Below are positions 134 through 18,257 of a DNA stretch of 24,510 nucleotides, in pieces. Made by a program: the position numbers and the translations under genes. Origin of the DNA: Symbiobacteriaceae bacterium (GTDB taxonomy: Bacteria; Bacillota_E; Symbiobacteriia; Symbiobacteriales; Symbiobacteriaceae); NCBI GenBank assembly GCA_027356675.1, contig DAHVXO010000241.1:1-24510 (forward strand), written 5' to 3'. Numbering within the stretch: position 1 is the stretch's first letter; each line of letters begins with the position of its first letter. The notes beneath the pieces are model-generated. The model was given only the letters and a program-made list of their open reading frames with translations. It was not told the origin of the DNA and searched no databases.

Positions 134-2461
134 ATGGATCAGGCAGAAGGGAAGACAATCCTGCAAGTGCAGGGCATTAGCTGTCTGGACTGCGCTGCCA
201 AGTTCGAGAAGAACGTAGCGGCGCTCCCTGGCGTGGCCAGGGCTACACTGAATGCTACCGCAGGTAAGCTGACGATCGAAGGTAACGTGGATCTCGAAGC
301 GATCCGACGTGAGGGCAAAAAGGAGAACTACACAATCGTTGCCCCGAATGCCCAGCGAGAGACGACACTGCGAATCGAAGGCATTACGTGTCTGGACTGC
401 GCTGCCAAGTTCGAGAAGAATGTAGCGGCGCTCCCTGGCGTGGCCAGGGCTAAACTGAATGCTACTGCAGGAAAGCTGATGATCGAAGGTGTCGTGGACC
501 TTGATGCCATCCGTCGGGAAGCGCAAAAGGAGAACTACACCGTCATAGCCCAGGGCGAGCTGCAGAACACGGGCGAGGCGAAGTCTTCCAAGATCGACTG
601 GGAACTGGTTCGTACCTGCGTCTCCGGGGTGGCGCTGGTTGCTGGCTATATCACCGGAAACGCCGGTGCAGCTCCGACCGTTGTCATCCCACTCTTCGTC
701 ACCGCCATGGTTCTCGGTGGGTGGGGCAACTTCCGTAAGGCGTTCTTCTCCCTCCGCAGCTTTGACTTCAACATGAGCGTCCTGATGAGCGTAGCCGTTC
801 TCGGTGCCATAGCCATCGGGGAGTGGGAAGAGGGCGCCGTGGTCGCTTTCCTTTACGCGGTCTCCGAAATGCTGGAGTCCTGGTCGATGGAGCGGGCCCG
901 GCGTTCCATCCGTGATCTCATGGACATTGCCCCGAAGGTGGCTCGTGTTCGCCGGGACGGTCGGGAAGTAGAGGTTCCGGTTGAGGCGATTCGGCTTGGC
1001 GACGTCATGATTATCCGCCCGGGCGAGAAGCTCGCCATGGACGGCCGGATTCTCAAGGGCGAGTCAGCCATCAACCAGGCAGCCATCACGGGTGAGTCGG
1101 TTCCCACAGAGAAGGGGCCGGGGGATGAGGTCTATGCCGGCACCCTGAACACCCACGGTTCGCTGGAGGTTGAGGTTACCAAGCTGGTGGAGGACACCAC
1201 GATCGCGAAGATCATCCACATGGTGGAGGATGCCCAGACCCAGCGAGCCCCTTCGCAAGCGTTTGTGGACCGCTTTGCCAAGGTATACACGCCCATCGTG
1301 CTCAGTCTCGCTGCCGGCATTGTGCTGATCCCGCCGTTGCTGATGGGCGCGCAATGGGCTCCCTGGATCTACCGTGGGCTGTCGCTCCTTGTGGTTGCCT
1401 GCCCGTGCGCTCTGGTGGTATCCACCCCGGTGGCGATTGTCAGCGCAATCGGTAACGCTGCCAAGAACGGTGTGCTGATCAAGGGCGGCATCCACCTTGA
1501 ACAGGCCGGCGCCTTAGAGGCCATTGCGTTTGACAAGACCGGCACGTTGACCAAGGGCGAGCCGGCCGTTACCGACATCGTCCCCCTCGGCTCTTTGACT
1601 GAGGTGGAACTGCTACAGATGGCGGCCAACCTGGAAGTCCGCTCAGAGCATCCGCTGGCGGTGGCCATCGTGAAAGCCGCTGAGGCCAGCGGCCTTAAGG
1701 CAGAAGCAGTCGAAGGGTTCAGCGCCCTCATGGGCCGTGGTGCCCAAGGCCAGGTCGATGGGCAGACCATCTACATTGGCAATTTGCGCCTCTTTGACGA
1801 GCAGGGGATTAGTACAGCACAGATCCTTGACCGTGTCCGCCATCTCCAGGAGGAGGGTAAGACGGCCATGGTCATGGGGACCGAGCAGACCTTCCTCGGG
1901 ATCATCGCAGTGGCCGACGAGGTCCGTGAGGTTAGCAAGAAGGCCGTAGCTGAGCTTAAGCGGGCCGGAATCCGCAAGACGATCATGCTCACCGGTGACA
2001 ACGAGGCAACAGCCAGAGCCATGACCGCCCGTGTTGGCGTTGACGAGTTTCGGGCCGAACTGCTGCCCCAAGACAAGGTCAGCGCCATCCAGGGGCTCCT
2101 GAAGGACTACGGCAAGGTGGCCATGGTGGGTGATGGCATCAACGATGCGCCGGCACTGGCGCTCTCCACCGTTGGCATTGCGATGGGTGGTGCCGGCACG
2201 GACACCGCCCTGGAAACGGCCGATATTGCCCTGATGGCGGACGACCTGTCCAAGCTCCCGTTCACGATTCGCCTGAGCCGGGCCGCGTTGCGTATCATCC
2301 GGCAGAACATCGCCTTCTCGCTGGCGATCAAGCTGATTGCCGTCGTGGCGGTGTTCCCGGGCTGGCTTACGCTGTGGCTGGCGATCCTGGCCGACATGGG
2401 AGCGTCGGTGCTCGTGACCTTGAACGGCATCCGGCTGCTGCGCATGAACCCCGAGAAGTGA
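134..2461 (+). CDS. cadA: CadA-like heavy-metal exporting P1B-type ATPase with tandem HMA domains
   Basis: This 775-residue protein is an inner-membrane pump that uses ATP to expel soft divalent metals (Cd, Zn, Pb). Two N-terminal heavy-metal-associated domains carry Cys-Leu-Asp-Cys sites at C17/C20 and C86/C89 in the CadA-style 'CxxCAxKFEKNV' context. Then come the membrane helices, the phosphatase TGES motif, the CPC transport motif (C423-P-C425), the phosphorylated Asp in DKTGTLT (D467), and a C-terminal GDGxNDAPAL hinge with two more helices. CPC plus the CadA-style HMA points to divalent metals rather than copper, although exact specificity is an inference. The ATG is preceded by AAGGAGGG at 117-124. 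It probably forms an operon with the upstream repressor gene. A strong hairpin follows the stop. Confidence 0.95.
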   Translation: MDQAEGKTILQVQGISCLDCAAKFEKNVAALPGVARATLNATAGKLTIEGNVDLEAIRREGKKENYTIVAPNAQRETTLRIEGITCLDCAAKFEKNVAALPGVARAKLNATAGKLMIEGVVDLDAIRREAQKENYTVIAQGELQNTGEAKSSKIDWELVRTCVSGVALVAGYITGNAGAAPTVVIPLFVTAMVLGGWGNFRKAFFSLRSFDFNMSVLMSVAVLGAIAIGEWEEGAVVAFLYAVSEMLESWSMERARRSIRDLMDIAPKVARVRRDGREVEVPVEAIRLGDVMIIRPGEKLAMDGRILKGESAINQAAITGESVPTEKGPGDEVYAGTLNTHGSLEVEVTKLVEDTTIAKIIHMVEDAQTQRAPSQAFVDRFAKVYTPIVLSLAAGIVLIPPLLMGAQWAPWIYRGLSLLVVACPCALVVSTPVAIVSAIGNAAKNGVLIKGGIHLEQAGALEAIAFDKTGTLTKGEPAVTDIVPLGSLTEVELLQMAANLEVRSEHPLAVAIVKAAEASGLKAEAVEGFSALMGRGAQGQVDGQTIYIGNLRLFDEQGISTAQILDRVRHLQEEGKTAMVMGTEQTFLGIIAVADEVREVSKKAVAELKRAGIRKTIMLTGDNEATARAMTARVGVDEFRAELLPQDKVSAIQGLLKDYGKVAMVGDGINDAPALALSTVGIAMGGAGTDTALETADIALMADDLSKLPFTIRLSRAALRIIRQNIAFSLAIKLIAVVAVFPGWLTLWLAILADMGASVLVTLNGIRLLRMNPEK
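173..547 (+). repeat. Tandem HMA-domain duplication inside cadA
   Basis: Two direct copies, about 173-340 and 380-547, are offset by 207 bases (69 codons) and encode the two metal-binding domains. Across 182-283 against 389-490 I count 97 identical bases of 102, including synonymous positions. This implies recent duplication or gene conversion rather than two old domains. Confidence 0.9.
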
Positions 2462-4824: not shown

Positions 4825-5877
<1,053 letters not shown>

Positions 5878-5914: not shown

Positions 5915-6340
5915 CTAAGCCCCCAGTTCGGTCAGCAGGGCCGCGATGCGCAGGCGGATATCGTCGCGAACGGCCCGGAACTGAGCCAAGATCTCTTCTT
6001 CCGTGCCCTTCGCCTTGGCCGGGTCCGGCAGGTCCCAGTGGCGCCGGACCAGGGCAGTTGGCGGCACGATGGGGCACCGTTCGTTAGCGTCTCCGCACAG
6101 GGTGATGATCACCTGTTGCTCACGATAGATCTCGAAGTCCAGGGTCTTCGAGGTCTGGCCCGTGATATCGACCCCGGCCTCCGCCATGACTTGCACGGCC
6201 CGGGGGTTCACCCCATGTGCCTCCAGGCCGGCGCTGTAAATCTCCCACTGATCGCCCGCCAGGGCCCTGGCCCACCCTTCGGCCATCTGGCTGCGGCACG
6301 AGTTGCCGGTGCAGATAAACGCGACCCGTCGCTTTGTCAC
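5915..6340 (-). CDS. arsC: Arsenate reductase, thioredoxin-coupled
   Basis: 141 residues, of the low-molecular-weight phosphatase fold type found in Bacillus and Staphylococcus. It reduces As(V) to As(III) in the cytosol using a Cys relay regenerated by thioredoxin. The nucleophile lies in the P-loop C10-TGNSC(15)RS. The relay cysteines are C82 and C89 in [11 protein letters not shown], and the DP pair at about 105-106 supplies the general acid. All positions match the classical C10/C82/C89 scheme. It lies 23 bases after arsA. The arsenite it makes is exported by ACR3, encoded directly downstream. Confidence 0.96.
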
Positions 6341-6363: not shown

Positions 6364-8118
6364 TCAGGCCCGAAGCAGCTGTAACAGACGTTCTGTCCCG
6401 ACGGGGTCCGATGCGACCCAGGGAATCAGGGCGCAGCGGACGGCAAGCTGCCGCCGGACCTGCTCGATCAGGGGCAGCTCATAGCTGGCCCGCTGCTGCA
6501 GGAGCGGATCGTGCGTGCCGCTGGCCGACAGACTCTGGTTGATGACCCAGCCGTACGGCTCGATGCCGGCGCGGCGGAGGTCCGCCTGGAGCCGCTCAGC
6601 CTCAAAGACCGGTGTCGCCTCGGCCAAGGTAACCAGCAGGATGCGGGTAAACGCCGGATCCCGCAGCCTTGGAAGGAGCTGCTTCACCGACTCGGGCGTG
6701 TTGTCCGCCTGCATGCCGACCTCACGATGGTACGCCTGGGTCGCATCCAGCAGGAGAATGGTGTGGCCGGTCGGCGCCGTATCGAGGATGACGAAACCGT
6801 CCCGGCCCTGCTCGACCATCTCGGCAAAGGCCCGGAAAACGGCGATCTCTTCGGTGCAGGGGGAACGCAGATCCTCCTCCAGAAGCGCCCGCCCCTCGGC
6901 ATCTAGATCCGTTCCGGCGGTGCCCATGACTTCGGCTGTGTAGGCCGCCACCTCAGCCTTGGGGTCAATCCGGCTGACCGTCAGATCGGGGAGGCCTTTG
7001 CCTACCGCATCCGCCACATGGGCCGCGGGGTCTGTGGTGGAAAGATGGACCCGGTGGCCCCGGGACGCCAGTTCAACGGCGATGGCGGCGGCCACCGTCG
7101 TCTTGCCGACGCCGCCTTTTCCCATGGTCATGATCACGCCACGGCCCTGCCCGGCGAGGCCATCCACCAGCTCCACAAGGGGGGCTGGCAAGGCTTCTCG
7201 GTCGGTGGCAACGCTGTCCGCCTGGATCGTCGAATCGGCCGGCGCCAGCATCTGCCGCAACGCCTCGACTCCGACCAGGGATCGGGGGACCAGGGGAATC
7301 TCCTCCCGGGGCAGCCCGGCGAGGGCATCAGGAATCGACCGCAGCGCCGTGTTGCCGCGCAGCTCAAGCGCAGCAGCGATGGGGTCGGCCTGCTCCCGGG
7401 CATGGAAAACGCCGTTGATCAGGAGCCACTGGTTGCGAACGCCCAGTTCGGCCAACTCGCCGCTGGCCCGCGCCGCCTCGGTTAGGGCCGCCCGCTCGGG
7501 CCGGCTCACGAGCAGCAGGGCGGTGCGGCTGCCGTCGGCTAGGGCCTCGACGGCGGCATGATATAGGTCGCGCTGTCCCTGCAGGCCCGCGAGGGGGCCA
7601 AGGCAGGAGCCGCCGTGGGTGTTGGTGTCGATGAACCCCTGCCAGGCCATCGGCAGGGAGAGCAGCCGCAGGGTGTGGCCCGTCGGCGCCGTATCAAAGA
7701 CGACATGATCGAACGCAGCGGTTGCCGCCGGGTTACCCAGGAGCCGGGCAAACTCGTCAAATGCGGCAATCTCCATGGTGCATGCCCCGGAGAGTTGCTC
7801 CTCCATGTTGGCCACGGCAGCCTCGGGGAGAATACCCCGGTAGGGGCTGACGACCTTCTCCCGGTATGCGGCAGCGGCGGCTTCGGGATCAAGGTTTGCG
7901 GCCATCAGGTTGGCGACGCCGGGGATGGGCTCTGGAGCCGGCCCCAGTTTCACCTGCAGTACATCATCCAGGTTGGATGCCGGGTCTGTGCTGATCAGGA
8001 GTACCCGGCGCCCAATGTCCGCCAGCCTGAGAGCGGTGGCACAGGAGAGTGAGGTCTTACCGACGCCGCCCTTGCCGGTGAAGAAGAGAAACCGCGTAGC
8101 TAGGTCGATGAAGCGCAT
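6364..8118 (-). CDS. arsA: Arsenite-stimulated ATPase ArsA, two-domain
   Basis: 584 residues, the full double-domain length. ArsA is the soluble ATPase that binds As(III) or Sb(III) and energises the arsenite permease. P-loops are FTGKGGVGKTS at 13-23 and MGKGGVGKTT at 332-341. Each half has a DTAPTGHT switch motif. The metal-site cysteines are all present: C113 (SGACTMEIA), C172 (GGSCLGPL) and C421 (RSPCTEEIA), placed as in the enterobacterial enzyme. The ATG follows AAGGAAGAAGGG. It lies 19 bases after arsD, the metallochaperone that loads it. Pairing with ACR3 rather than ArsB is common outside Enterobacteria. Confidence 0.96.
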   Translation of the reverse strand: MRFIDLATRFLFFTGKGGVGKTSLSCATALRLADIGRRVLLISTDPASNLDDVLQVKLGPAPEPIPGVANLMAANLDPEAAAAAYREKVVSPYRGILPEAAVANMEEQLSGACTMEIAAFDEFARLLGNPAATAAFDHVVFDTAPTGHTLRLLSLPMAWQGFIDTNTHGGSCLGPLAGLQGQRDLYHAAVEALADGSRTALLLVSRPERAALTEAARASGELAELGVRNQWLLINGVFHAREQADPIAAALELRGNTALRSIPDALAGLPREEIPLVPRSLVGVEALRQMLAPADSTIQADSVATDREALPAPLVELVDGLAGQGRGVIMTMGKGGVGKTTVAAAIAVELASRGHRVHLSTTDPAAHVADAVGKGLPDLTVSRIDPKAEVAAYTAEVMGTAGTDLDAEGRALLEEDLRSPCTEEIAVFRAFAEMVEQGRDGFVILDTAPTGHTILLLDATQAYHREVGMQADNTPESVKQLLPRLRDPAFTRILLVTLAEATPVFEAERLQADLRRAGIEPYGWVINQSLSASGTHDPLLQQRASYELPLIEQVRRQLAVRCALIPWVASDPVGTERLLQLLRA

Positions 8119-8137: not shown

Positions 8138-8494
8138 TTAGCAGCAGTTGCCGGGCTGAATGACTGTCAGTTCATCGTTATCGTTCGGCGCGGGCATGCC
8201 CAGCCGGACAGCGAGGTCAGCCCGGGTCGGGTAGGCACCCTCAAAGGCGACCTGACCGTCGACCAGAACCATGGGCAAGACCTTCAGGCCTCGGGAGTGC
8301 ATGGCGTTCTTGACCAGTTCCGCAGTGGCGAAGGCTTGGGGCTGTTGGGAGAGGTTGTTCCGCTCGACGTTGACGCCCTGGCCCTTCAGCCAGTCGAGAT
8401 CGGCTGCAAAGCGTACCAGGACCGGATCAACGCTGGGGCCGCAGACGCCGGTGGAGCAACACATGGCACGCTCAAACACTTGAACCTTGGACAT
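8138..8494 (-). CDS. arsD: Arsenite metallochaperone ArsD
   Basis: 118 residues with a thioredoxin-like fold. ArsD hands As(III) to ArsA and weakly represses the operon in some bacteria. The essential metal site C12-C13...C18 is intact (RAMCCSTGVCGPSVD), and a vicinal pair C117-C118 ends the protein; the other C-terminal pair of the plasmid R773 form is absent. I choose ATG 8494 because GAGGAGA lies close upstream and it places the cysteines at the canonical 12/13/18. The upstream in-frame GTG at 8530 would add 12 residues. It is separated from arsR by 113 bases that hold an 11-bp palindrome (CCATACTATGG) but no clear promoter. Confidence 0.95.
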   Translation of the reverse strand: MSKVQVFERAMCCSTGVCGPSVDPVLVRFAADLDWLKGQGVNVERNNLSQQPQAFATAELVKNAMHSRGLKVLPMVLVDGQVAFEGAYPTRADLAVRLGMPAPNDNDELTVIQPGNCC

Positions 8495-8607
8495 GGTGCA
8501 TCTCTCCTCATTCTCGTTGATGGAGGCCACGACTCTCTGCCATAGTATGGCGGTTGCATCAAAAATTCTTGTTCAAAGGGCGAAAAAAGAGGAGCGGACT
8601 AGGGCCG

Positions 8608-8934
8608 CTAAAGGACGTCCAACGCTCGGACTTGCGCCAGGAGATCTGGCTTGACCAGGCTGTAGTGGCTCCAGGTACCGGCCACACGGCGGGTGATCAG
8701 GTTGGCGTCCAGGAGCACCTTCAGGTGATAGGAAATCTTGGACTGCGTCAACCCTAGCATCTCTTCGAGGTCGCAGTTGCACAGGTCAGCGTGCTGTTCC
8801 AGGAGGTGAACGATCTGCACCCGAATCGGGTCACTGAGGGCTTTGGCAAGCCCGGCTAGTCTAGCCGCCTCCGTTTCCGGCAACAGCCTCAGCCCGGGAA
8901 CACGTTGGCAGCCAGGACCGGAGCACTCGCTCAC
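8608..8934 (-). CDS. arsR: ArsR-family arsenite-responsive repressor
   Basis: 108 residues, winged helix. The inducer site is in the third helix: ADLC(52)NC(54)DLEEMLGL, the ELCxCDL signature of As(III)/Sb(III) sensors, followed by the recognition helix TQSKISYHLK and a wing ending WSHYSL. Extra cysteines C4 and C9 near the N-terminus could supply a third thiol. The frame extends upstream, but GTG 8934 is the start because AAGGAGGT lies directly before it and translation matches family length. It is the first gene of the leftward operon and diverges from the CC/Se gene. Overlapping promoters at 8961-9008 place both under its likely control. Confidence 0.94.
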   Translation of the reverse strand: MSECSGPGCQRVPGLRLLPETEAARLAGLAKALSDPIRVQIVHLLEQHADLCNCDLEEMLGLTQSKISYHLKVLLDANLITRRVAGTWSHYSLVKPDLLAQVRALDVL

Positions 8935-8960
8935 GCGGGCACCTCCTTCAACAACCTTTC

Positions 8961-8989
8961 TTGATGTATGTGCCCCCCTAGTATATGCT
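8961..8989 (+). promoter_or_regulatory. Sigma-A-type promoter of the CC/Se-motif gene
   Basis: TTGATG (8961-8966), a 17-base spacer and TATGCT (8984-8989), reading toward the gene at 9028. Its -10 box overlaps that of the arsR promoter by two bases. Confidence 0.65.
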
Positions 8990-9008
8990 GGGTACGACCG
9001 GATTACAA
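8980..9008 (-). promoter_or_regulatory. Sigma-A-type promoter of the arsR operon with overlapping operator candidate
   Basis: On the minus strand: TTGTAA (9003-9008), a 17-base spacer and TATACT (8980-8985). The imperfect palindrome AGTATATGCT (8980-8989) covers both divergent -10 boxes and is a natural place for ArsR to block both directions. That it is the operator is inference. Confidence 0.72.
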
Positions 9009-9027
9009 GTACACAAAGGGTGGTGGC

Positions 9028-9318
9028 ATGGTGCGAGTCTTTCTGGAGCCTGAGGCGGCCGCCTTGATTCGGGAGAGCGGCGGGCAACTGATTCTTTATG
9101 AGGCGCCCTTCAGCGGGTGCTGCGGGATTGGCTCCGTGCCCGTTCCGTCCTGGGAAATTGGCCGGCCACGTCGACCTTTGGATGAATACCGGCTGGTAAT
9201 CTCCGATGGTGTGGAGGTGTACCTGGACAAGCAGTTCGACAGGTCCGACCGGACTGTGCAGGTCCGTTTGACGAAGATGCTCGGGTGGCGGTCCTTGTCG
9301 CTCTTTGTTCCCAATTGA
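9028..9318 (+). CDS. CC/Se-motif family protein (HesB-like small thiol protein)
   Basis: 96 residues, no signal peptide. It matches the small family described as 'CC/Se motif (seleno)proteins': a beta-rich start (VRVFLEPEAAALI), a glycine-flanked vicinal pair G30-C31-C32-G, a Pro-rich strand (VPVPSWEIGRP), then a 'DGVEVYLDK' strand and a C-terminal strand pair. In selenoprotein members one Cys is Sec; here both are TGC codons, so this is the all-Cys form. Function in the family is unknown; the vicinal thiols could bind As(III), but this is inference. ATG 9028 follows AAAGGGTGG. It diverges from arsR and has its own promoter and terminator. Confidence 0.75.
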   Translation: MVRVFLEPEAAALIRESGGQLILYEAPFSGCCGIGSVPVPSWEIGRPRRPLDEYRLVISDGVEVYLDKQFDRSDRTVQVRLTKMLGWRSLSLFVPN

Positions 9319-9333
9319 TGACCGCTCAGACAG

Positions 9334-9373
9334 ATAGCAGACAGTACGTCAGTCACGACGGGCTGTCTGCTAT
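9334..9373 (+). terminator. Terminator after the CC/Se-motif gene
   Basis: ATAGCAGACAG (9334-9344) pairs perfectly with CTGTCTGCTAT (9363-9373), followed directly by TTTTCATT. It isolates this gene from the MarR operon. Confidence 0.9.
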
Positions 9374-9381
9374 TTTTCATT

Positions 9382-9445
9382 GTTGTGCTTGACAACGAAT
9401 CTCGCACCAAATATTATTGCCTCAGACAACGTTGTGTCAGACAAC
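9382..9445 (+). promoter_or_regulatory. Paired MarR-type operators GTTGT-N5-ACAAC
   Basis: Two copies of GTTGT-N5-ACAAC lie at 9382-9396 and 9431-9445, identical at 12 of 15 positions. The first covers the -35 box, and the second lies downstream of the expected transcription start, before the ribosome binding site. A third, abutting palindrome ACAACGTTGT occupies 9426-9435. The layout suggests autorepression by the MarR protein encoded next. Confidence 0.7.
9389..9417 (+). promoter_or_regulatory. Near-consensus promoter of the marR-arsN-MFS-arsM operon
   Basis: TTGACA (9389-9394), 17-base spacer, TATTAT (9412-9417). It is the best promoter match in the window, consistent with an operon that is strong when derepressed. 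Confidence 0.82.
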
Positions 9446-9468
9446 AATCTCGGCGGAGGGTCAACCCT

Positions 9469-9936
9469 ATGGACGAAATGCGTGCGGGGTGGCTATTGCG
9501 TGAGGTGGCCCGGCTGCACAGCCAGCTCCAGCGGAACGAGGTCGTCATCTGCTGCGACACTTCCTCGACCCAGTGTCATCTCTTGACCGAACTGGATCGG
9601 AGCGGTCCCCTGCCGTTTGCAGAGCTGGTCCAACGGCTTAACACGGACAAAGGGTGGGTCAGCCGTACGGTGGAGGCGATGGCCCAGGACGGGGTGCTCA
9701 CAAAAGAACCGAAGCCTACTGATAAACGTACCGTTATCGTCGCTCTTACTCCAGCGGGCGGAGCCAAAGCCGCTGAGGTGGGTGCCACACTCAACAGCCA
9801 GTCGGGACGGGTCCTGCAGCGCGTTCCTGAGCGGGAGCGGCCCAATGTGCTCAGGGCGCTCGAACTACTGCATCAGGCCCTGGTAAGCGAAAGCACTGGC
9901 GACCCGGTTCAGATCCAGCTGGAGGAGGACGTGTAA
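9469..9936 (+). CDS. MarR-family transcriptional regulator
   Basis: 155 residues. The helix-turn-helix is at about 48-75 (PLPFAELVQRLNTDKGWVSRTVEAM) with a charged wing containing PTDKR at 83-87, then C-terminal dimerisation helices. MarR proteins usually repress their own operon until an organic ligand or thiol reagent binds. The second helix carries C28-C29 and C36, spaced so that three thiols could meet an arsenical. ATG 9469 is chosen over an upstream in-frame start because GGCGGAGGG (9452-9460) precedes it and the earlier codons lie in the operator region. The stop overlaps the next ATG by one base, so it is translationally coupled to the acetyltransferase. Confidence 0.9.
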   Translation: MDEMRAGWLLREVARLHSQLQRNEVVICCDTSSTQCHLLTELDRSGPLPFAELVQRLNTDKGWVSRTVEAMAQDGVLTKEPKPTDKRTVIVALTPAGGAKAAEVGATLNSQSGRVLQRVPERERPNVLRALELLHQALVSESTGDPVQIQLEEDV

Positions 9937-10862
9937 TGGAGACCGTTAACTTCCGCAGCGCCACCGGGGCTGACTGGCCGGCGGTATCGACGCTCCTGAC
10001 CCAGGCGGAACTGCCGACCGCTGGTGCCGAAGCCCGCCTGGAGCACTTCCTCCTGGCCTTCCGGGGCGAATATCTGGTGGCCAGTGCCGGACTTGAGGTC
10101 TACGGAACCACGGCGCTGCTTCGTTCGGTGGCCGTCAGCAAGACGGAACGGGGAACGGGCCTGGGCCAGGAGATTGCTCGCCGCCTGCTCGACCAGGCCT
10201 ATGAAGCCGGGCTGAAGCTGGTGGCACTCTTGACCACGACGGCCGACCGGTTCTTCCCCCGGTTCGGCTTTGCCACGGTAACCCGTGCGGGTCTGCCGGC
10301 CGAGATCTTCGCTTCGCCGGAGTTCCAGGGGGTCTGCCCCTTGTCGTCCACCGTCATGCGGCTTGACCTGGACCGGGCGCCCCTCCTGGTCCGGCCCGCG
10401 ACGGAGGCAGACATCCCGGCCATCACCCGCATCTACAACCAAGGCATTGAAGACAGGTCCACCCTCGAAACCCAACTCCGTACATACGATGAGCGCCAGC
10501 AGTGGCTGTCCGGCCATGGCGAACGTCACCCTGTTACCGTTGCGGTACGGCAGGGTGAGGTAATCGGCTGGGCATCGATCAACCAGTTCAACGTGCGCCA
10601 GGCCTACCGATTTGTCGGTGACGTCTCCGTCTACGTGGCTCGTGACGCTCGCCGAACCGGCGCCGGGCTGCGCCTCATGCAGGACCTGGTAGACCGGGCG
10701 AAGGGGCTTGACTATCACAAGTTGGTCCTGACCACCTTCCCGCACCTGCCAGCCGTGAAGCTGTATGAAAAGCTGGGGTTCCGACATGTGGGGGATTACC
10801 GGGAGCAGGGGCTCCTGGACGGAACCTGGGTCGACACACGGATTATGGAGTTCATTCTCTAG
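9936..10862 (+). CDS. arsN: Fused GNAT acetyltransferase, ArsN2-like domain plus ArsN1-like domain
   Basis: 308 residues, two complete GNAT domains. Residues 1-145 resemble ArsN2: LRSVAVSKTERGTGLG (acetyl-CoA loop about 71-77), LLTTTADRFFPRFGF and the conserved SPEFQGVCP with C134. Residues 150-308 resemble ArsN1 and phosphinothricin/methionine-sulfoximine acetyltransferases: VRPATEADIPAITRIYNQGIED, a second CoA loop at about 239-245, FPHLPAVKLYEKLGF and a C-terminal strand. ArsN1 detoxifies the antibiotic arsinothricin by N-acetylating its alpha-amino group; the ArsN2 substrate is unsettled. The two are normally separate genes, and I see no stop or shift between them. GGAGGAGG at 9921-9928 serves the ATG. 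Substrate is inferred from family and operon. Confidence 0.85.
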   Translation: METVNFRSATGADWPAVSTLLTQAELPTAGAEARLEHFLLAFRGEYLVASAGLEVYGTTALLRSVAVSKTERGTGLGQEIARRLLDQAYEAGLKLVALLTTTADRFFPRFGFATVTRAGLPAEIFASPEFQGVCPLSSTVMRLDLDRAPLLVRPATEADIPAITRIYNQGIEDRSTLETQLRTYDERQQWLSGHGERHPVTVAVRQGEVIGWASINQFNVRQAYRFVGDVSVYVARDARRTGAGLRLMQDLVDRAKGLDYHKLVLTTFPHLPAVKLYEKLGFRHVGDYREQGLLDGTWVDTRIMEFIL

Positions 10863-10876
10863 GAGGGTTCCTCGTC

Positions 10877-12100
10877 ATGGTCGCTGCAGTGGGGGTTCGC
10901 AAACGTCTTGCCACCTTTACAGGCCTTTCCCGCTCCTTCGGCATCTTCCTTGCTGGCCTTACGATTTCCAAGCTGGGCGATGCGCTTTACATGTTTGCCC
11001 TTCCGTGGATCGCCTACGACCTGAGCGGCTCCGCTGTTGTCATGGGCGCCCTGTACGCCACAGAGATCATCCCGATTCTGCTCTTCGGTGCCCTTGCCGG
11101 TGTCTTCGTCGACCGGATGGACCGTCGCAAGCTGATGATCATCTCCGACCTGCTGCGTGGGCTGATCGTGACCGCCATTCCAATCTTGGCGCTGCTCGGG
11201 ATGCTCCAAGTCTGGCACCTGTTCGTCGTGGCCTTCTCCCTGGCGCTCATCTCACTGATGTTTGACGTGGCAACGACCATTGCCATTCCGGAACTGGCCG
11301 GCAACGACTTGACCCGGGCAAATGCGGCGCACCAGCTGATTATGCAGCTTGGCTCGATGGGCGGCCCTGCTCTTGCTGGTCTGGTGATCGCAGCGTTCGG
11401 CGGCTACGGCGCCATGTGGATAAACGCACTCTCCTTCGGCGCAACGCTAGTGGCCATCCTGATGTTGCCCGCCTTCAAAAAGGTGAACAGCGGAGCCACC
11501 ACCAGCGGCGTGTTTACCGGCATGGTGGAAGGGTTCCGGTGGCTGTGGGGCAACGCTGTGATCAAGGTGCTCAGCTTCCAGGCCATGATCGGCAACTTCG
11601 GTTTCGGCATGGTCAGCGCTGTACTCATGTTCTACCTGCGCAGCGTGCTGGGCCTCACCTCAGAGATCAGCGGCCTGAACTACTCGATGTTGGGTGTGGG
11701 CGGCGTCATCGGCTCGCTGGCGATTGTGCCCCTGACCCGGCGGTTCCGGCGTGGCCAACTCTATCCTGCCATGCTGCTCTTGGGCATGACCGGCCTGCTG
11801 ATTATGGCGATGGTCCGGACCTGGTGGGCACCCGGCCTTGGCTTCGGTATGGTGTCAGCCTGCAACGTGGCCTGGGTCGTGCTCTCCACGTCGGTGCGTC
11901 AGGAGAATATCCCGTCCGATCTGATGGGGCGGGTACTCTCGTTCACCCGGGTGCTATCCACCGCTGCGATGCCGGTTGGCGCCACGCTGGGCGGCCTTCT
12001 GGTGGAACGGTTTGACCCGATGGTTGTCTTCTTGATTGCTGCGGGCACCAAGCTGGCTGAGGCGATGATCGCTCGGTTCTCTGCGATGCGGGCCCTGTAA
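10877..12100 (+). CDS. MFS efflux transporter (EntS/DHA3-like) in the arsN operon
   Basis: 407 residues, about twelve membrane helices. The MFS motif between helices 2 and 3 is at 75-85 (GVFVDRMDRRK). The general pattern matches the MFS_3 (EntS-like) drug or siderophore exporter group. Such carriers occur in ars operons and are proposed to export organoarsenicals; in arsinothricin producers a permease (ArsQ) has that job. Which arsenical, if any, this one carries cannot be read from sequence. TAGGAGGG precedes the ATG, and it starts 14 bases after the acetyltransferase gene. One plausible division of labour is acetylate, then export. Confidence 0.85.
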   Translation: MVAAVGVRKRLATFTGLSRSFGIFLAGLTISKLGDALYMFALPWIAYDLSGSAVVMGALYATEIIPILLFGALAGVFVDRMDRRKLMIISDLLRGLIVTAIPILALLGMLQVWHLFVVAFSLALISLMFDVATTIAIPELAGNDLTRANAAHQLIMQLGSMGGPALAGLVIAAFGGYGAMWINALSFGATLVAILMLPAFKKVNSGATTSGVFTGMVEGFRWLWGNAVIKVLSFQAMIGNFGFGMVSAVLMFYLRSVLGLTSEISGLNYSMLGVGGVIGSLAIVPLTRRFRRGQLYPAMLLLGMTGLLIMAMVRTWWAPGLGFGMVSACNVAWVVLSTSVRQENIPSDLMGRVLSFTRVLSTAAMPVGATLGGLLVERFDPMVVFLIAAGTKLAEAMIARFSAMRAL

Positions 12101-12127
12101 CGGGCCAAAGAAACGGAGGGTTCCGAA

Positions 12128-12928
12128 ATGGATGCACATGAGACGCGTACAGTTGTCCGGAATCGATACGCACAGACCGCTCAGGAAGGTGGCTGCTGCG
12201 CCACACCGACGAGGCCTGATTCGACCGGATGTTGCGGGGGCGGCAGCATCATCTCTGTTGCAGATCTTGCCAAGACGATCGGTTATTCCGATGATGAACT
12301 GGCGGTGGTCCCCGCTGGGGCGAACCTCGGGCTGGGCTGCGGCAACCCCCAGGCCATTGCATCGATCCGGCCAGGCGAAACAATGCTCGACCTGGGATCG
12401 GGTGCCGGTTTCGACTGCTTCCTCGCTGCCCGCCAGGTGGGGGAGAGCGGCCGTGTCATTGGGGTCGACATGACGCCCGAAATGCTAGCGAAGGCCCGGG
12501 CGAACGCCCGGACCGGCGGATGGCAAAACGTCGAGTTCCGCCTGGGCGAGATCGAGCACCTGCCTTTGGCGGATCAGAGCGTAGACGTGATCATCTCCAA
12601 CTGCGTCATTAACCTGTCGCCCGAGAAGCCTTTGGTCTTCCGGGAGGCGTTCCGGGTGTTGAAGCCCGGCGGCCGCCTCGCCGTTTCCGATATGGTGGCG
12701 AGTATGGCGCTGCCGCCCGAAGTGCAGCAGGACCTGGCGCTTTACGCCGGGTGTATCGCCGGGGCGGCTACGATCCAGGAGCTTAACACAATGCTGGCCG
12801 AGGTCGGGTTCGTGGAGATCAACATTACTCCCAAGGACAGCCGTGAGCTACTGCAGACCTGGGGCACCGATACGAGGCTGGAAGACGTGGTCTTCTCGGC
12901 AAATATCCAGGCCGTTCGCCCGCGATAG
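12128..12928 (+). CDS. arsM: Arsenite S-adenosylmethionine methyltransferase
   Basis: 266 residues, class I SAM methyltransferase. It methylates As(III) stepwise to mono-, di- and trimethyl arsenicals. The SAM site is MLDLGSGAGFDCF at 86-98, with acidic GVD at about 112-114. The three conserved arsenic-binding cysteines are C71 (GLGCGNP), C159 (ISNCVINLSP) and C209 (AGCIAGA). Two further Cys pairs at 23-24 and 35-36 are typical N-terminal ArsM thiols. The ATG follows GGAGGG, 27 bases after the MFS gene, making it the last gene of the operon. Methylarsenite is more toxic than arsenite, so an exporter in the same operon makes sense. A strong hairpin follows. Confidence 0.96.
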   Translation: MDAHETRTVVRNRYAQTAQEGGCCATPTRPDSTGCCGGGSIISVADLAKTIGYSDDELAVVPAGANLGLGCGNPQAIASIRPGETMLDLGSGAGFDCFLAARQVGESGRVIGVDMTPEMLAKARANARTGGWQNVEFRLGEIEHLPLADQSVDVIISNCVINLSPEKPLVFREAFRVLKPGGRLAVSDMVASMALPPEVQQDLALYAGCIAGAATIQELNTMLAEVGFVEINITPKDSRELLQTWGTDTRLEDVVFSANIQAVRPR

Positions 12929-13003
12929 AGTGAACGCTGGTGACTAGCAGACACCTCTCTTGATAGTCGGCTATCCACGAAAGCCGCACCGTTTTTGCGC
13001 ACT

Positions 13004-13036
13004 ACAAAGGCCGAGGACGTCATCCTCGGCCTTTGT
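13004..13036 (+). terminator. Hairpin terminator after arsM
   Basis: A perfect 14-bp stem: ACAAAGGCCGAGGA (13004-13017) with its complement (13023-13036), 5-base loop. A clear T-run is missing, but its position 75 bases after arsM fits an operon end. Confidence 0.72.
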
Positions 13037-13151
13037 ATGCGTCGCCGTCGTCGCATCAGGGAGGACGCCACCGCCCGCCCTTGGGGATGTTAGCAGGCAA
13101 CGCGGCAAACGACGCCGAAGTCATGGTAGTGGCTTAAACGCGGGAGAGGTG

Positions 13152-14081
13152 ATGCGTCTGTCGGATTGGCTGGAACAACTGCATCACTGGGCCATCACCG
13201 AGCGTCAGCCACGGCTGACGGCAAAGACGCTGAAAGACTACAGCCAAGATCTGAGGAACTTTGCGAGGTGGGTTGACACCGCTCGAGGTCAGCCATTTCT
13301 GCCCGCACTACTTAGGCATGAGGATGCCGAAGCATGGAAGCAGCACGAACTCGCCCGAGGGCGTCGCCCCAGTAGCATCAACCGGGCCCTGGCCGCCTTG
13401 CGTTTTCTTGCCGAATGGCTGAAGAAAACCGGACAGACGGAGGATCGGCTGCTAGACAAACTGAAGCAGGTCCCACGCGAAGAAGTCGAAAGCTATCGAT
13501 GGCTTGAACTCACAGAGATCGTTCGGCTCTATCGGGCCATTAGGACGGTGCCGGGATGGAGCGACCGTCGCCGCGTCATGACAGAAGCTCTACTCCGAAT
13601 CATGCTGGAGGCCGGCCTTCGAGTCGATGAAACGGCAAATCTCCGCCTGGACGATCTCTCCCTGACCCCCTTGGACCAAGCGCACCTAACAGTGCGAGCC
13701 GGAAGAGGCGGCCATAGTAGACGAGTTCCATTCGGGCAGGATCTTCAACAATCCCTCACGGCATGGCTCGCGCTACGTAAAGGCAGCACTCCATGGCTCT
13801 TCCCTGGCTCAAGAGCGTCTCGATTAGGGCACAGTGCCATTGGCAATTCGGTGCGGGTGCTGGCAAAGACCGCTGGCATCCAAGCAGTGACGTGCCAGAC
13901 CCTACGGGTTACCTGCGGGCACATGCTCTACCTCAAGACGAAGAATCTGTGGATCGTAGCAGCCCTGATGGGCCACTTTTCCGCCGACGGACAACCGCTC
14001 CCTTCTGGCTGCGCCAACTATGTGTACCGGCCTGGCCAGGAACTGGAAATGCCGGATCTGGACGCCTATCTTTGTGAGTGA
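13152..14081 (+). CDS. Degenerate tyrosine recombinase of the Tn3-type transposon
   Basis: 309 residues. The N-terminal SAM-like DNA-binding domain (about 1-100) and the C-terminal catalytic fold are recognisable: arginine I at R157 (AGLRVDE), arginine II at R252, the Leu/Met-Gly-His motif at H275 and tyrosine candidates Y290/Y292. Two expected residues differ: the beta-hairpin Lys is replaced (GRGGHSR at 184-190), and the first His of HxxR is Gln (QTLR, 249-252). The LGH-Tyr spacing is also long. It may be a partner subunit or accessory protein rather than a full recombinase. I chose ATG 13152 with GGGAGAGG upstream. The upstream extension of the frame runs into the arsM terminator. It precedes the intact recombinase and transposase genes. 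Confidence 0.8.
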   Translation: MRLSDWLEQLHHWAITERQPRLTAKTLKDYSQDLRNFARWVDTARGQPFLPALLRHEDAEAWKQHELARGRRPSSINRALAALRFLAEWLKKTGQTEDRLLDKLKQVPREEVESYRWLELTEIVRLYRAIRTVPGWSDRRRVMTEALLRIMLEAGLRVDETANLRLDDLSLTPLDQAHLTVRAGRGGHSRRVPFGQDLQQSLTAWLALRKGSTPWLFPGSRASRLGHSAIGNSVRVLAKTAGIQAVTCQTLRVTCGHMLYLKTKNLWIVAALMGHFSADGQPLPSGCANYVYRPGQELEMPDLDAYLCE

Positions 14082-14106
14082 CAAGACAAACACAACAAAT
14101 GTTGAA

Positions 14107-14144
14107 AGAGCGGCCCAGGCAACTACTAGCCTGTTGGCCGCTCT
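14107..14144 (+). terminator. Hairpin after the first recombinase gene
   Basis: AGAGCGGCC-CAGGC pairs with GCCTG-TT-GGCCGCTCT (14107-14120 with 14129-14144), 8-base loop and a two-base bulge. No T-run follows. It may terminate transcription or form part of the recombination region. Confidence 0.5.
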
Positions 14145-14204
14145 CGTGCTGTGAATGGGGTCCTTGAAGATTGGCGCCGCGTGACTTCCGATCAGGTATG
14201 GGCA

Positions 14205-14244
14205 CGGACAGATAAATCCGCCACAATGCGGACAAATAACTCCG
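14205..14244. other. Candidate tyrosine-recombinase core site
   Basis: CGGACAGATAAATCCG (14205-14220) and CGGACAAATAACTCCG (14229-14244) flank an 8-base spacer CCACAATG. Each unit begins CGGA and ends TCCG, so the pair reads both as direct and as inverted arms. Two roughly 15-bp arms around a 6-8 base spacer is the usual crossover architecture. It lies between the two recombinase genes, where such Tn3 elements keep their resolution site. This is inference from layout. Confidence 0.5.
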
Positions 14245-14310
14245 TCCGTAACAAGCGGCCTGTGTTTCGCAGAGGTATTTCTTAGATTATCTTGGACACG
14301 GGGGATTTCC

Positions 14311-15222
14311 ATGCTGATCAGTGAACTGGCTGATGCCTTTCTGACCGCAAATCAGAACAGTTACTTGGCCAACACTCGCCGAGCCTATGGTTACGACCTT
14401 GGCTTATTCACCCGCGCCTTTCCCGAACTCCCCGTTGAGGAGATCACCGTTCAGCATCTACGGGCATTCCTGACAGCCACGGCCGTCCTGGCCCCGTCCA
14501 CTCTCGCCCGGCGGCAGGCAACGCTCCGCTCCTGCTTCGGCTGGGCATTTCGTAACGACCTGGTGGGCGCTGACCCAACCGGAAAGCTGGAGCCGATCAA
14601 GGTTCCGCAACGAGACCCGCGGCCCCTAACGGAAGCCCAGGTGGAGGCCATTCTGGCGGCGGTACCCACCGCCGAGAAGCGTAACCGCCTCTTCTTCACC
14701 TTGCTCTATGAGACAGGGATGCGCGTCGGGGAGGCGCTGGGGCTGCAGGTGCAGCAGGTGAACCTCAACGAAGTAGACGGTGGATACCTCCGGGTAATCG
14801 GCAAGGGCGACAAGGAACGGATCGTTCCCTTGATCGACGCCCCGCGCACGGTCCGGCTGCTGCGCGAGGTCTTGAAGAAGGTTGGTACCGTGGGCCCCCT
14901 CTTCCGTGGAGACGCCAGTAAGGGTGGCCACGCCGGCCAGGCGCTGGACTACACGACCATGTACTATCACTTTGAGCGATACGTGGCGGCCGTACAGGAG
15001 AAGCACGCCGGTTCGTTCCAGGGGGAAGCCGAACCCATTACGATTCACCGCTTCCGACACACCTTTGCGACTCTCCGGCTAAAGGACGGGGTGAGCCTGC
15101 CTTCCGTGCGGAAACTTCTGGGGCACAAGAACCTCCAGACCACCCTCCGGTACGCTGAAACGGACCTCGATACGATCAAAAAGGAGCTCTCCGAGGCCCG
15201 GCGCCGCCGCAACCGTAGATAG
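14311..15222 (+). CDS. Tyrosine recombinase (XerC/D-like, TnpI role)
   Basis: 303 residues. Residues 1-85 form the core-binding domain, and the rest is the catalytic domain. All six active-site residues can be placed: R138 (GMRVGE), K165 or K168 (GKGDKER), H246 and R249 (HRFRH), H272 (LLGHKN) and Y281 (TTLRYAE). In Tn3-family elements such as Tn4430 the tyrosine recombinase resolves the cointegrate made by the transposase at an internal site; that role is likely here from position. ATG 14311 is preceded by GGGGG with short spacing. It ends 77 bases before tnpA and shares its direction. Confidence 0.92.
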   Translation: MLISELADAFLTANQNSYLANTRRAYGYDLGLFTRAFPELPVEEITVQHLRAFLTATAVLAPSTLARRQATLRSCFGWAFRNDLVGADPTGKLEPIKVPQRDPRPLTEAQVEAILAAVPTAEKRNRLFFTLLYETGMRVGEALGLQVQQVNLNEVDGGYLRVIGKGDKERIVPLIDAPRTVRLLREVLKKVGTVGPLFRGDASKGGHAGQALDYTTMYYHFERYVAAVQEKHAGSFQGEAEPITIHRFRHTFATLRLKDGVSLPSVRKLLGHKNLQTTLRYAETDLDTIKKELSEARRRRNRR

Positions 15223-15299
15223 CCTCGCAGGGACAAAGGGCGCTTCGTCCGAAGATTGGTAAAGCAGCTTGTACCCAGCAAGGGAGGCAGCCTACCGCC

Positions 15300-18257
15300 A
15301 TGGCGTCCATCGAACGGACAGCGTACCCACGCCTAAAGCGAGCACCGACCGCAAAAGAGCTTCAGGAGGTTTATACGCCGACGCCCCGGGAGACACAGTT
15401 TGCCTACGGCGGTGCCCGTGGCCCGGAACCCCTGCTTCACATTTTGGTCCTACTGAAGGTATTCCAACGGCTGGGCTACTTCCCGAGCGTTAATGACGTT
15501 CCTGCGCCGATCGTCAACCACATCAGGCAGCATCTGAGCCTTTCGCCCGATGTACAGCCTGACGTTTCGCCCAGAACCCGCTACAAGCACCATGTAGCCA
15601 TCCGGGAGTATCTGGAGATCATCCCGTTTGGGAGCCACGCACGTCGCGTCTGTACGGGGGCGGTCTACCGTTCAGCTCACGTCATGGATAACCCGGCGGA
15701 CCTGATCAACGTAGCCATTGAGGAACTGATCAAGGAGCGATGTGAGCTTCCCGGGTTCACCACGCTCGACAAGTTGGCCAGGCGCATCCGCACCCTGGTG
15801 AACCGGCGATTCTTCAATACCGTGTTGTCCCGGTTGTCGGCCGATGAGCAGCGCCAGCTTGACCGGCTGCTAACTCCCGATGATCCCAACCACAAGAGCA
15901 CCTTTCACTACTTCAAAGAGCCACCAAAGAGCGCCACCCTGAGCCACATGCACGAGCTGCAGGTGCGCTTCTCCTGGCTTCTTACCATAGGCGACGTGGA
16001 GCGGGTTCTGGAGGGGATCCCGAATGCCAAGATCAAGCACTTTGCGGCAGAGGCTCGAGCCCTTGACGCCGCAGAGTTACGGGATTTCACGCCGCCAAAG
16101 CGATACACCCTTGTGCTCGCCATGTTGCAGCGGGCTCGGATCACTGTCCGCGACAACCTGGTGGGGACCTTCCTGAAGCGGATCGGCGCCATTCACAACC
16201 GTGGCAAGCAGGCCCTGGCGGAACTCCAGGAAAAGCACCGGGCCAAGACAGAGCGGCTGATCTCCGTGTTTGCGGAGGTCCTTCAGACCTCAGAGAACAG
16301 CCAAGCCGACGACGCCTCCCTTGGCCGCCAGGTGAAGGACTTGCTGGCCGCCCGCGGCGGCGCCGGCGTCCTGCTGGACGACTATGAATCCGTCTCGGCC
16401 TACAGCGGCAACAACTACCTGCCGCTACTCTGGAAGTTCTACAAGAGCCATCGTTCGGAGCTTTTTCGCATGGTTCGGCTGCTCACCATCAAGCCAACGA
16501 CTCGGGATCGGTCGTTGATGACCGCTCTGGATTTCCTGCTCGAGAACGAAAACCGACGCAGCGAGTTCCTCAAAGCTGACCTGGACCTCTCCTTTGCCAG
16601 TGACCAGTGGATCCGCACCGTCCTGGTTCGGCAGAATCGTGAGATCGTCTACAATCGGCGCCACCTGGAAGTCTGCGTGTTCTCCCACATCGCCGCCGAG
16701 CTGAAGAGTGGTGACCTGTGCGTACAGGGGTCCGAGAACTTCGCTGACTACCGCGACCAACTGCTACCCTGGAGCGACTGCGAACCCATGGTGGCCCAGT
16801 ACTGCCGAGAGATGGGCTTCGAGGCTACCCCCAGCACCTTCGTGGAGCAGCTGCGCACTTGGTTAACGCAGACAGCCCTGGACGTGGACCGCAACTACCC
16901 GGACAACGGCCAGGTCGTCATCAGCGAAAGCGGAGAGCCGGTCCTGAAACGAATCCCACGGAAAGAGCTGTCGCGGAGTGTCAGGGACCTCGAAAACACG
17001 ATCCTTGAACGGATGCCAGAGCGGAACATCATCGACGTGCTGTGCAATGGTCAGCACTGTACGAACTGGACCCGCCACCTTGGTCCCCTCTCGGGGTCCG
17101 ATCCAAAGTTGGAGAATGCCGTCGAGCGTTACATCATCACCGCTTTCAGCTATGGATGCAACCTTGGACCAGCTCAGGCGGCCCGCCATATGCGCGGGTT
17201 GGTAACGGCCCATCAGATCTCGTTCGTCAACCGCCGCCATGTCACGGCCGCCAAACTGGACGAGGCGATCCGAGATGTCATCAACCAGTACAACCGCTTC
17301 GGCCTCCCCAAGGTGTGGGGCGACGGGTCTACCGCTGCTGCCGATGGTACGAAGTTTGATCTATACGAAGAGAACCTGGTCTCCGAGTACCATATCCGCT
17401 ATGGCGGCTACGGCGGGATCGCCTACCACCATGTCTCCGACACCTACATCGCCCTGTTCAGCCACTTTATCCCCTGCGGTGTATGGGAAGCTGTGTACAT
17501 CATCGACGGGCTCCTAAAGAACAAGTCGGACATTCAGCCCGACACGGTCCATGCAGACACCCAGGGCCAGTCACTTCCCGTGTTCGCATTGGCCCATCTC
17601 CTAGGCATCAAGTTGATGCCGCGCATCCGCAACTGGAAAGACCAGAAGTTCTTCCGTCCCAGCAAGGATGCGATTTACAAGCACATCGACCCGCTCTTTG
17701 GCGACGAGGTGGACTGGGAGCTCCTCGAAACCCACTGGCAGGATCTCCTGCAGGTGGTCCTCTCCATCAAGGCTGGCAAGGTGTTACCCTCCACTCTGCT
17801 TCGCAAGCTGGGCAACAACAGCCATAAGAACCGCCTCTACAGGGCCTTTCGTGAACTTGGCCGGGTAATGCGAACGGTGTTCCTGCTGCGCTATATCACC
17901 GACATCCAGCTCCGGGAGCAGATCACCGCCACCACCAACAAGGTGGAAGCCTACAACGGCTTTACGAAGTGGGTCTTCTTCGGTGGTGAGGGTGTCATCT
18001 CCGAAAACGACCCTGAAGAGCAGGAAAAGCGAATCAAATATAAGGACCTTGTGTCCAACATCATCGCCGTCCAGAACGTGGTGGACATGACCTACGCCCT
18101 GCGGGAGTTGAAGCGAGAGGGGTATGAGGTTAATCGGGAGGACGTGGCCGGCCTCAGTCCGTACCTGACCAGGCACATCAAGCGGTTTGGGGACTACTAC
18201 ATCGACCTTGGGAACGCCCCACAGCCACTCGACAGCGATATGTCAGTACCCGTGTAG
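15300..18257 (+). CDS. tnpA: Tn3-family DDE transposase
   Basis: 985 residues, the normal length for this family. The N-terminal part (about 1-550) is the DNA-binding and self-association region that recognises the 38-bp ends. The catalytic core shows WGDGSTAAADGTKF (D675, D682), VHADTQGQS (D753) and TNKVEAYNGF (E883), so a complete DDE triad can be placed with D682 as the likely first Asp. Other family landmarks are RYGGYGGIAYHH and RNWKDQKF. There is no internal stop, so the protein is probably functional. It carries out replicative transposition. The ATG is 12 bases after AGGGAGG. The right terminal repeat begins 31 bases after the stop. Confidence 0.96.
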   Translation: MASIERTAYPRLKRAPTAKELQEVYTPTPRETQFAYGGARGPEPLLHILVLLKVFQRLGYFPSVNDVPAPIVNHIRQHLSLSPDVQPDVSPRTRYKHHVAIREYLEIIPFGSHARRVCTGAVYRSAHVMDNPADLINVAIEELIKERCELPGFTTLDKLARRIRTLVNRRFFNTVLSRLSADEQRQLDRLLTPDDPNHKSTFHYFKEPPKSATLSHMHELQVRFSWLLTIGDVERVLEGIPNAKIKHFAAEARALDAAELRDFTPPKRYTLVLAMLQRARITVRDNLVGTFLKRIGAIHNRGKQALAELQEKHRAKTERLISVFAEVLQTSENSQADDASLGRQVKDLLAARGGAGVLLDDYESVSAYSGNNYLPLLWKFYKSHRSELFRMVRLLTIKPTTRDRSLMTALDFLLENENRRSEFLKADLDLSFASDQWIRTVLVRQNREIVYNRRHLEVCVFSHIAAELKSGDLCVQGSENFADYRDQLLPWSDCEPMVAQYCREMGFEATPSTFVEQLRTWLTQTALDVDRNYPDNGQVVISESGEPVLKRIPRKELSRSVRDLENTILERMPERNIIDVLCNGQHCTNWTRHLGPLSGSDPKLENAVERYIITAFSYGCNLGPAQAARHMRGLVTAHQISFVNRRHVTAAKLDEAIRDVINQYNRFGLPKVWGDGSTAAADGTKFDLYEENLVSEYHIRYGGYGGIAYHHVSDTYIALFSHFIPCGVWEAVYIIDGLLKNKSDIQPDTVHADTQGQSLPVFALAHLLGIKLMPRIRNWKDQKFFRPSKDAIYKHIDPLFGDEVDWELLETHWQDLLQVVLSIKAGKVLPSTLLRKLGNNSHKNRLYRAFRELGRVMRTVFLLRYITDIQLREQITATTNKVEAYNGFTKWVFFGGEGVISENDPEEQEKRIKYKDLVSNIIAVQNVVDMTYALRELKREGYEVNREDVAGLSPYLTRHIKRFGDYYIDLGNAPQPLDSDMSVPV

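Follow-up and report, generated by a model that had tools for sequence, protein, structure and literature searches.

A predicted anti-arsenical operon under a MarR-family regulator with hinge cysteines in a Symbiobacteriaceae bacterium

In the available text of PMC11868830 and PMC12124457, ArsR repressors are credited with regulating arsenic methylation and ars operons, and the former describes ArsR sensors that use three cysteines for trivalent arsenic, As(III), with two sufficing for methylarsenite, MAs(III). Here we analyzed a stretch of 24,510 nucleotides (nt) from a Symbiobacteriaceae bacterium (contig DAHVXO010000241.1; the whole stretch is called the window below), in which a MarR-family regulator gene precedes genes for a fused ArsN2-ArsN1 acetyltransferase (N2N1), a transporter of the major facilitator superfamily (MFS) and the methyltransferase ArsM. 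We consider it likely that these genes form a self-contained anti-arsenical operon, repressed by a MarR protein that senses trivalent arsenicals and whose clade is linked to arsenic methylation and acetylation. With less assurance, we lean narrowly towards a second arsenic-responsive repressor lineage outside ArsR, made up of MarR proteins with a cysteine cluster between helix 1 and helix 2 (typically CC, and QC within about ten residues). Their ligands would be trivalent, probably mono-organo, arsenicals, and their targets would be arsM, arsN1, arsN2 and exporter genes in Bacillota, Deinococcota and Pseudomonadota; in Priestia, such MarRs stand by ArsL. The window operon would then be the fullest version met here, joining sensing, acetylation, export and methylation. 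Neither a MarR arsenic sensor nor an ArsN2-ArsN1 fusion was found in the literature searched, which included the available parts of PMC6465285, PMC8552651, PMC8060452, PMC12608789, PMC8649762, PMC11868830 and PMC12124457, with subscription papers mostly outside its coverage.

A sequence-only reading of the window had placed genes for acetylation, export and methylation under a MarR gene, and curated family matches and tight packing confirmed all four genes at the predicted place and strand, as one compact operon beside arsR-arsD-arsA-arsC-acr3 (Table 1). The marR stop and the fusion start share 1 base, and the gaps are 14 nt to the MFS gene and 27 nt to arsM. To our mind, the strongest clues are the cysteines of the regulator and its operator, neither of which that reading mentions.

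The window MarR scored above the gathering scores of PF01047 (E 2.4e-12, 47 bits) and PF12802 (40.3 bits), and no ArsR model was among its profile hits. Its structure model (pLDDT 89.9) resembles MarR structures and puts C28 and C29 at the end of helix 1 (residues 3-29) and C36 early in helix 2 (residues 33-45). In an alignment of 38 MarR proteins, C28 is invariant and C36 is conserved in at least 90%. The CC...QC pattern was present in 35 of the 57 homologues found, two of which are fragments without the hinge part.

To quantify the linkage of such regulators to arsenic genes, an alignment search for window-type MarR proteins was run in 398 genomes of the phylum and 154 of the class, giving 57 loci, and the next 39 rows of the 398-genome search were added in score order, ignoring cysteines and skipping one row already included, for a total of 96. 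An arsenic neighbor was scored within 1.5 kb, and marR frames were read from stop to stop. Loci whose MarR carries at least two hinge cysteines had an arsenic gene at 60 of 79 places, and those with fewer cysteines at 0 of 17. Sorted by the CC pair, the same 96 loci comprise 58 with CC and an arsenic gene, 18 with CC only, 2 with an arsenic gene only and 18 with neither; the corresponding numbers for the 39 added loci are 20, 6, 0 and 13 (20/26 versus 0/13). In an earlier count on 54 loci, CC made no significant difference (36/48 versus 3/6, p = 0.33), its six loci without CC including two with two hinge cysteines and one with a truncated frame. Fisher tests on the extended sets gave p values from 1e-5 to 3e-9, the last pooled with 27 same-genome control loci, and these are only a guide because the loci share ancestry and the tests overstate their independence. 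These controls come from 30 MarR_2-family loci in four genomes, three of which are module MarRs; none of the other 27 had a hinge CC or an arsenic gene within 1.5 kb.

Plasmids gave a similar picture. The MarR matched 29 plasmid records at E<=1e-8, of which 21 were opened, and an arsenic gene lay within about 6 kb in all 20 annotated records opened. Their MarRs have the CC pair in 18 of 20 cases, with one hinge cysteine plus C36 in the other two (L098, L104); a MarR from another search (L004) also carries CC. In the unannotated record, from Nonomuraea (L101), the MarR lacks the CC pair, and tblastn with the reference set found no arsenic gene. A cysteine-less MarR paralogue (L084) used as plasmid query gave no independent control, since it returned only four records, all Deinococcus MarRs already known. 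All 21 tabulated plasmid-type MarRs also have cysteines at about residues 141-159, often as a second CC pair. In four of the 20 annotated records, all from Priestia (L095, L107, L108, L110), the arsenic gene is a radical SAM gene with an RCCLKC tail; that of L107, where a marR-permease pair stands by it, passes the ArsL model NF040542 (696 bits, cut-off 450), and the other three are assigned by annotation. These four clusters also encode an aquaporin or MIP channel, a GTP-binding protein, an ArsR/SmtB regulator, an ATP-grasp protein, a carboxymuconolactone decarboxylase and the marR-permease pair, a set that looks like an organoarsenical biosynthesis cluster.

Upstream of the window marR, a promoter TTGACA-N17-TATTAT (9389-9417) follows a hairpin with a T run (9329-9378) and is overlapped and followed by MarR-type sites (Table 1). 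A 36-base-pair palindrome at 9413-9448, with the core ACAACGTTGT at 9426-9435, turned up unprompted in a repeat search. Over 180 sequences (1.19 Mb, overlaps included), this core occurs at six unique places (the window, L061, L172, L168, L170 and L171) where 0.54 would be expected, each directly upstream of a marR, arsM or arsN2 coding region. The Deinococcus loci L002, L003, L098 and L104 have a looser version of it at the same promoter spacing. The form TTGTN5ACAA was present near the marR start (-150 to +60) at 12 of 29 loci, against 0.26 expected by dinucleotide shuffles.

The genome search for a conserved four-gene order, proposed by the sequence-only reading, found the full order in the window only (a genome scan gave one locus, and a separate search of 398 genomes of the phylum gave two genomes at E<=1e-70), while pairs and triples recur. 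A search in 154 genomes of the class of genome G001 gave matches in 61 (E<=1e-25), and 20 places were opened with wide flanks. At nine of them (L039, L040, L041, L043, L046, L047, L048, L050, L058), a marR homologue is fused to N2N1 or located at most about 250 nt away. Six of these sets (L039, L043, L046, L048, L050, L058) include an MFS relative 26-33% identical to that of the window, with marR, N2N1 and MFS all on one strand in L043, L046, L048 and L058; the acetyltransferase frame is broken in L050 and L058. Among the other opened places, no marR was seen in L042, L044, L045, L049 and L051, and in L057 marR lies about 1.1 kb from an ArsN2. L052-L056 encode single-chain ArsM-ArsN2 fusions, five of five over the ArsN2 cut-off, which tie methylation to ArsN2.

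Twelve further MarR regions (L168-L179) were opened. One reads acr3-arsM-marR (L168), two arsM-marR (L169, L170), one marR then arsM on one strand (L171), one marR-arsM with a 4-nt overlap and an arsM 74% identical to that of the window (L172), one marR-arsM (L173), one marR-arsM-arsN1 (L174), one marR with an ArsM-ArsN2 fusion (L175), one marR-MFS (L176) and one marR-MFS with an N1-like frame (L177); no marR partner was found among the reference genes used in L178 and L179. Plasmids of Paenibacillus carry marR-arsM-arsN1, with a small open reading frame (ORF) after marR in L094 and without it in L109, those of Niallia (L096, L105) marR-arsN1 followed by an NAD(P)-binding protein gene, and those of Deinococcus (L003, L098) arsN1 divergent from marR-arsN2. 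The marR-arsN2-MFS sets of Deinococcus ficus and D. aetherius (L097, L103) were considered as the same fusion and rejected: Pfam identifies ArsN2-DUF6428, and their MFS has no BLAST hit to the window MFS, so they were not counted. Metallophosphoesterase-like genes stand near several marR-arsM or marR-arsN units (L117, L121, L125, L168, L002, L104), and a similar protein is described as a putative arsenate reductase in the available part of PMC12124457. Because the fusion, the gene pairs and the operator all recur in other genomes, the four-gene operon goes beyond chance, and the recurrence of marR-arsM, marR-arsM-arsN1 and marR-N2N1-MFS upholds the arsenical character that the sequence-only reading had given to this separate operon.

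The fusion ORF (9936-10862) encodes a double acetyltransferase of 308 residues, of which residues 13-142 pass the ArsN2 model NF040501 (159.3 bits, cut-off 125) and residues 152-308 the ArsN1 family A model NF040503 by a small margin (173.7 bits, cut-off 170). The PDB entries listed as matching its structure model (pLDDT 94.5) are phosphinothricin-acetyltransferase-like enzymes, with PpArsN1 (5wph) among them. The curated profile matches and the model show the fold and family of the enzyme. By profile score, a close homologue of PpArsN1 belongs to ArsN1 family B. A protein search with the fusion scored 7997 candidates, with 1201 at E<=1e-10; among the best 120 of these, counting that of the window, 97 span at least 95% of the query, and the two-domain layout is thus common in metagenomes. 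The few listed matches with a taxon name belong to Symbiobacteriaceae, Bacillota/Firmicutes, Chloroflexota and a Microcoleus, and one partial record bears the label Mycobacterium leprae. Single-chain MarR-ArsN2-ArsN1 fusions account for three of the listed proteins (P0050, P0081 and P0082, the last being locus L041 and counted once). ArsN2 was set aside by the paper that named it (PMC6465285, available part), and the recurring MarR-N2-N1 and ArsM-N2 fusions offer a contextual handle on it.

The arsM product passes the arsenite methyltransferase model NF008823 (360.4 bits, cut-off 263); its C71, C159 and C209 lie in GCGNP, SNCVINL and GCIAGA segments that align with solved ArsM chains, and N-terminal CC pairs are present. 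It stays under the cut-offs of the arsinothricin-biosynthesis models NF040538 (156.3 bits, cut-off 500) and NF040539 (89 bits, cut-off 240). The MFS protein is over the cut-offs of PF07690 and PF05977 and under that of TIGR00900 (203 bits, cut-off 319.6). It had no match to a named arsenic exporter model (ArsK, ArsQ, ArsP, ArsJ), and its listed NCBIfam hits are other transporters, each under cut-off.

From the gene content, linkage, conserved cysteines and conserved operator computed here, we infer the ligand, the direction of regulation and the substrates of the acetyltransferase and pump as follows. Without arsenical, a MarR dimer would occupy tandem TTG(T/C)N5ACAA sites, positioned so as to overlap the -35 box of its own promoter and to lie after the -10 box. 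The C28 and C29 thiols, with C36, at the junction of helices 1 and 2 would capture arsenite, methylarsenite or a trivalent amino-arsenical, and the bound trivalent arsenical would bend the hinge and release the DNA. In the derepressed operon, the fused ArsN2-ArsN1 would acetylate amino groups of arsenical amino acids, the MFS pump would export a product, and ArsM would methylate As(III) or MAs(III). Sensing by the MarR is thus inferred from its cysteines and linkage. Since the cysteine pair is conserved and the third cysteine variable, and ArsR needs two for MAs(III), the analogy suggests, without proving, a mono-organo-arsenical ligand. If arsenic sensing holds, this would be an arsenic sensor of a new type, outside ArsR, with a candidate site and operator; it would explain the switching of the arsM and arsN genes adjoining such a MarR, mark operons aimed at organoarsenicals and supply a biosensor part.

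Several observations weigh against this proposal. Nineteen of the 79 loci bearing two or more hinge cysteines had no arsenic gene within 1.5 kb. The cysteine pattern varies: about a dozen of the 57 homologues have C28 and C36 but lack C29, and most of this group carry a cysteine four positions ahead of C28; five (P0129, P0139, P0141, P0143, P0144) lose C36 and keep CC; Bacillus-type relatives carry QS in place of QC; and C-terminal cysteines (about residues 141-159) are absent from the window MarR. No acr3, arsA, arsD, arsR or arsC homologue stands beside the MarR-N2N1 sets of the class (arsB was not among the references), the lone exception near them being a weak arsM-like match (32%) near L043. 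L061 keeps a window-type promoter and operator before arsN2 without an adjacent marR; its MFS is 93% identical to that of the window, and most of the ArsN1 half is deleted (L061:700-1400). As the marR-arsM unit of L172 belongs to the same genome (G001), one regulator may serve both units. Finally, of the seven arsinothricin contacts given in the available part of PMC6465285 (I31, F33, R75, A76, R77, A124, V158), the ArsN1 half, with S, L, N, V, R, F and T, keeps one (Arg77, window R221). The arsinothricin claim is weakened by these changes; the family name ArsN1 stands, and arsinothricin as a substrate does not follow from the name and is, judged by these residues, uncertain.

The changed contacts could also be explained by a cassette that protects against phosphinothricin-type or other glutamate-analogue antibiotics, the ars neighborhood being an accident of mobile DNA. 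ArsN1 is related to phosphinothricin acetyltransferases, a transposase of the Tn3 type is encoded downstream, and the nine class sets apart from acr3, arsA, arsD, arsR and arsC make a phosphinothricin-like substrate possible. However, the ArsM-ArsN2 fusions and the arsM of the window operon indicate arsenic, marR-arsM pairs were seen without any acetyltransferase, and the phosphinothricin acetyltransferase model gave the fusion 81.5 bits, far under its cut-off of 300; we consider this explanation distinctly unlikely. MarR proteins with reactive cysteines are known, and the regulator might be a general thiol sensor of oxidation or electrophiles, like OhrR or MexR, with the arsenic genes as one of several outputs. 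AbfR, solved in reduced and overoxidized forms, is among the structural neighbors of the MarR model, and the 19 cysteine-bearing loci without an arsenic neighbor would fit. Against this, 60 of the 79 cysteine-bearing loci and none of the 17 others have an arsenic neighbor, and an oxidation sensor would not account for the repeated arsM/arsN pairing; we regard this reading as unlikely.

The operon might also be part or a remnant of an organoarsenical producer, with self-protection provided by the fusion and pump, and with ArsM making methylarsenite or completing an arsenical antibiotic. This idea, which is compatible with arsenical sensing by the MarR, appears improbable to us. According to the available text of PMC11868830, trivalent methylarsenic made by anaerobes is regarded as having antibiotic action, and window-type MarRs stand by ArsL in one Priestia plasmid and, by annotation, in three more. 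Against it, tblastn with an ArsL found no match in the window, in agreement with the sequence-only reading, and the window ArsM falls under the arsinothricin-biosynthesis cut-offs; a search for ArsL in 154 class genomes likewise gave 0 matches, but it gave none in control genomes either.

Table 1 Positions of the operon, its predicted control region and other features (window coordinates unless a locus is given).
Feature	Position	Strand	Basis or remark
Promoter-operator (predicted)	9383..9448	+	MarR-type sites overlap and follow promoter
MarR-type site TTGTGCTTGACAA	9383-9395		predicted
MarR-type site TTGCCTCAGACAA	9417-9429		predicted
MarR-type site TTGTGTCAGACAA	9432-9444		predicted
marR	9469..9936	+	MarR-family repressor (predicted), hinge cysteines C28, C29, C36
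ArsN2 half of fused acetyltransferase	9936..10370	+	residues about 1-145; NF040501
ArsN1 family A half of fused acetyltransferase	10380..10862	+	residues about 149-308; NF040503, fold like 5wph (PpArsN1)
Putative MFS exporter, MFS_3 / TIGR00900-like	10877..12100	+	PF07690, PF05977
arsM, arsenite S-adenosylmethionine methyltransferase	12128..12928	+	NF008823
Hairpin 3' of arsM, possibly terminator, without clear T run	about 13005..13035	+	read by eye
acr3 arsenite exporter, neighboring inorganic-arsenic operon	4825..5877	-	TIGR00832, 465.7 bits
arsC, thioredoxin type	5915..6340	-	TIGR02691, 190.6 bits, cut-off 174.3
arsA	6364..8118	-	TIGR04291
arsD	8138..8530	-	NF033727
arsR	8608..9087	-	NF033788; true start probably inside frame
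ArsN2-DUF6428 fusions, Deinococcus plasmids	L097:5661-6650; L103:5429-6439		order marR-arsN2-MFS; Pfam

The neighboring arsR operon, which the sequence-only reading had assigned to inorganic arsenic, was recovered by profile matches on the minus strand. Between both operons and divergent from arsR lies a frame of the CC/Se-motif family (seleno)protein (9028-9318, plus strand; NF041239, 52.4 bits, cut-off 40), possibly a small arsenic-related protein. Directly downstream of the MarR operon (12960-18257, plus strand) are two recombinases of the phage-integrase family together with a Tn3-family transposase (NF033527, 726 bits). It is possible that the ars region belongs to a Tn3-type element; the window repeats showed no evident long terminal inverted repeats that would bound a transposon. 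A Tn3 transposase also stands beside the ars genes of P. bovis (L109). The window further encodes a heavy-metal P-type ATPase with two heavy-metal-associated domains (134-2461, plus strand).

Compared with described systems, the window MarR resembles the ArsR-family repressors (R773 ArsR, AfArsR, CgArsR, ArArsR and the MAs(III)-selective SpArsR) in being a putative winged-helix repressor inside its own operon whose site probably consists of two or three cysteines; in the available text of PMC11868830, CgArsR has a vicinal pair and a third cysteine, and ArArsR controls an arsRMC operon, comparable to the MarR with arsM. Unlike them, it belongs to the MarR family (PF01047), with a proposed site at the helix 1-helix 2 hinge and a TTGTN5ACAA operator. 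The ArsN1 half shares the GNAT fold and the Arg77 equivalent with Pseudomonas putida PpArsN1, which confers arsinothricin resistance, but it is of family A rather than B, is fused to ArsN2 and differs at six of seven contacts. The arsQML arsinothricin cluster of Burkholderia gladioli likewise combines methyltransferase and exporter genes in an ars operon, but its ArsQ is GntP-related and ArsR control is proposed for it (PMC8552651, available part), whereas the window has an MFS protein, a MarR and no ArsL. Finally, as in the arsR-arsM operons of arsenic methylators, arsM would stand under a dedicated repressor, with MarR in place of ArsR and with acetyltransferase and MFS genes in addition.

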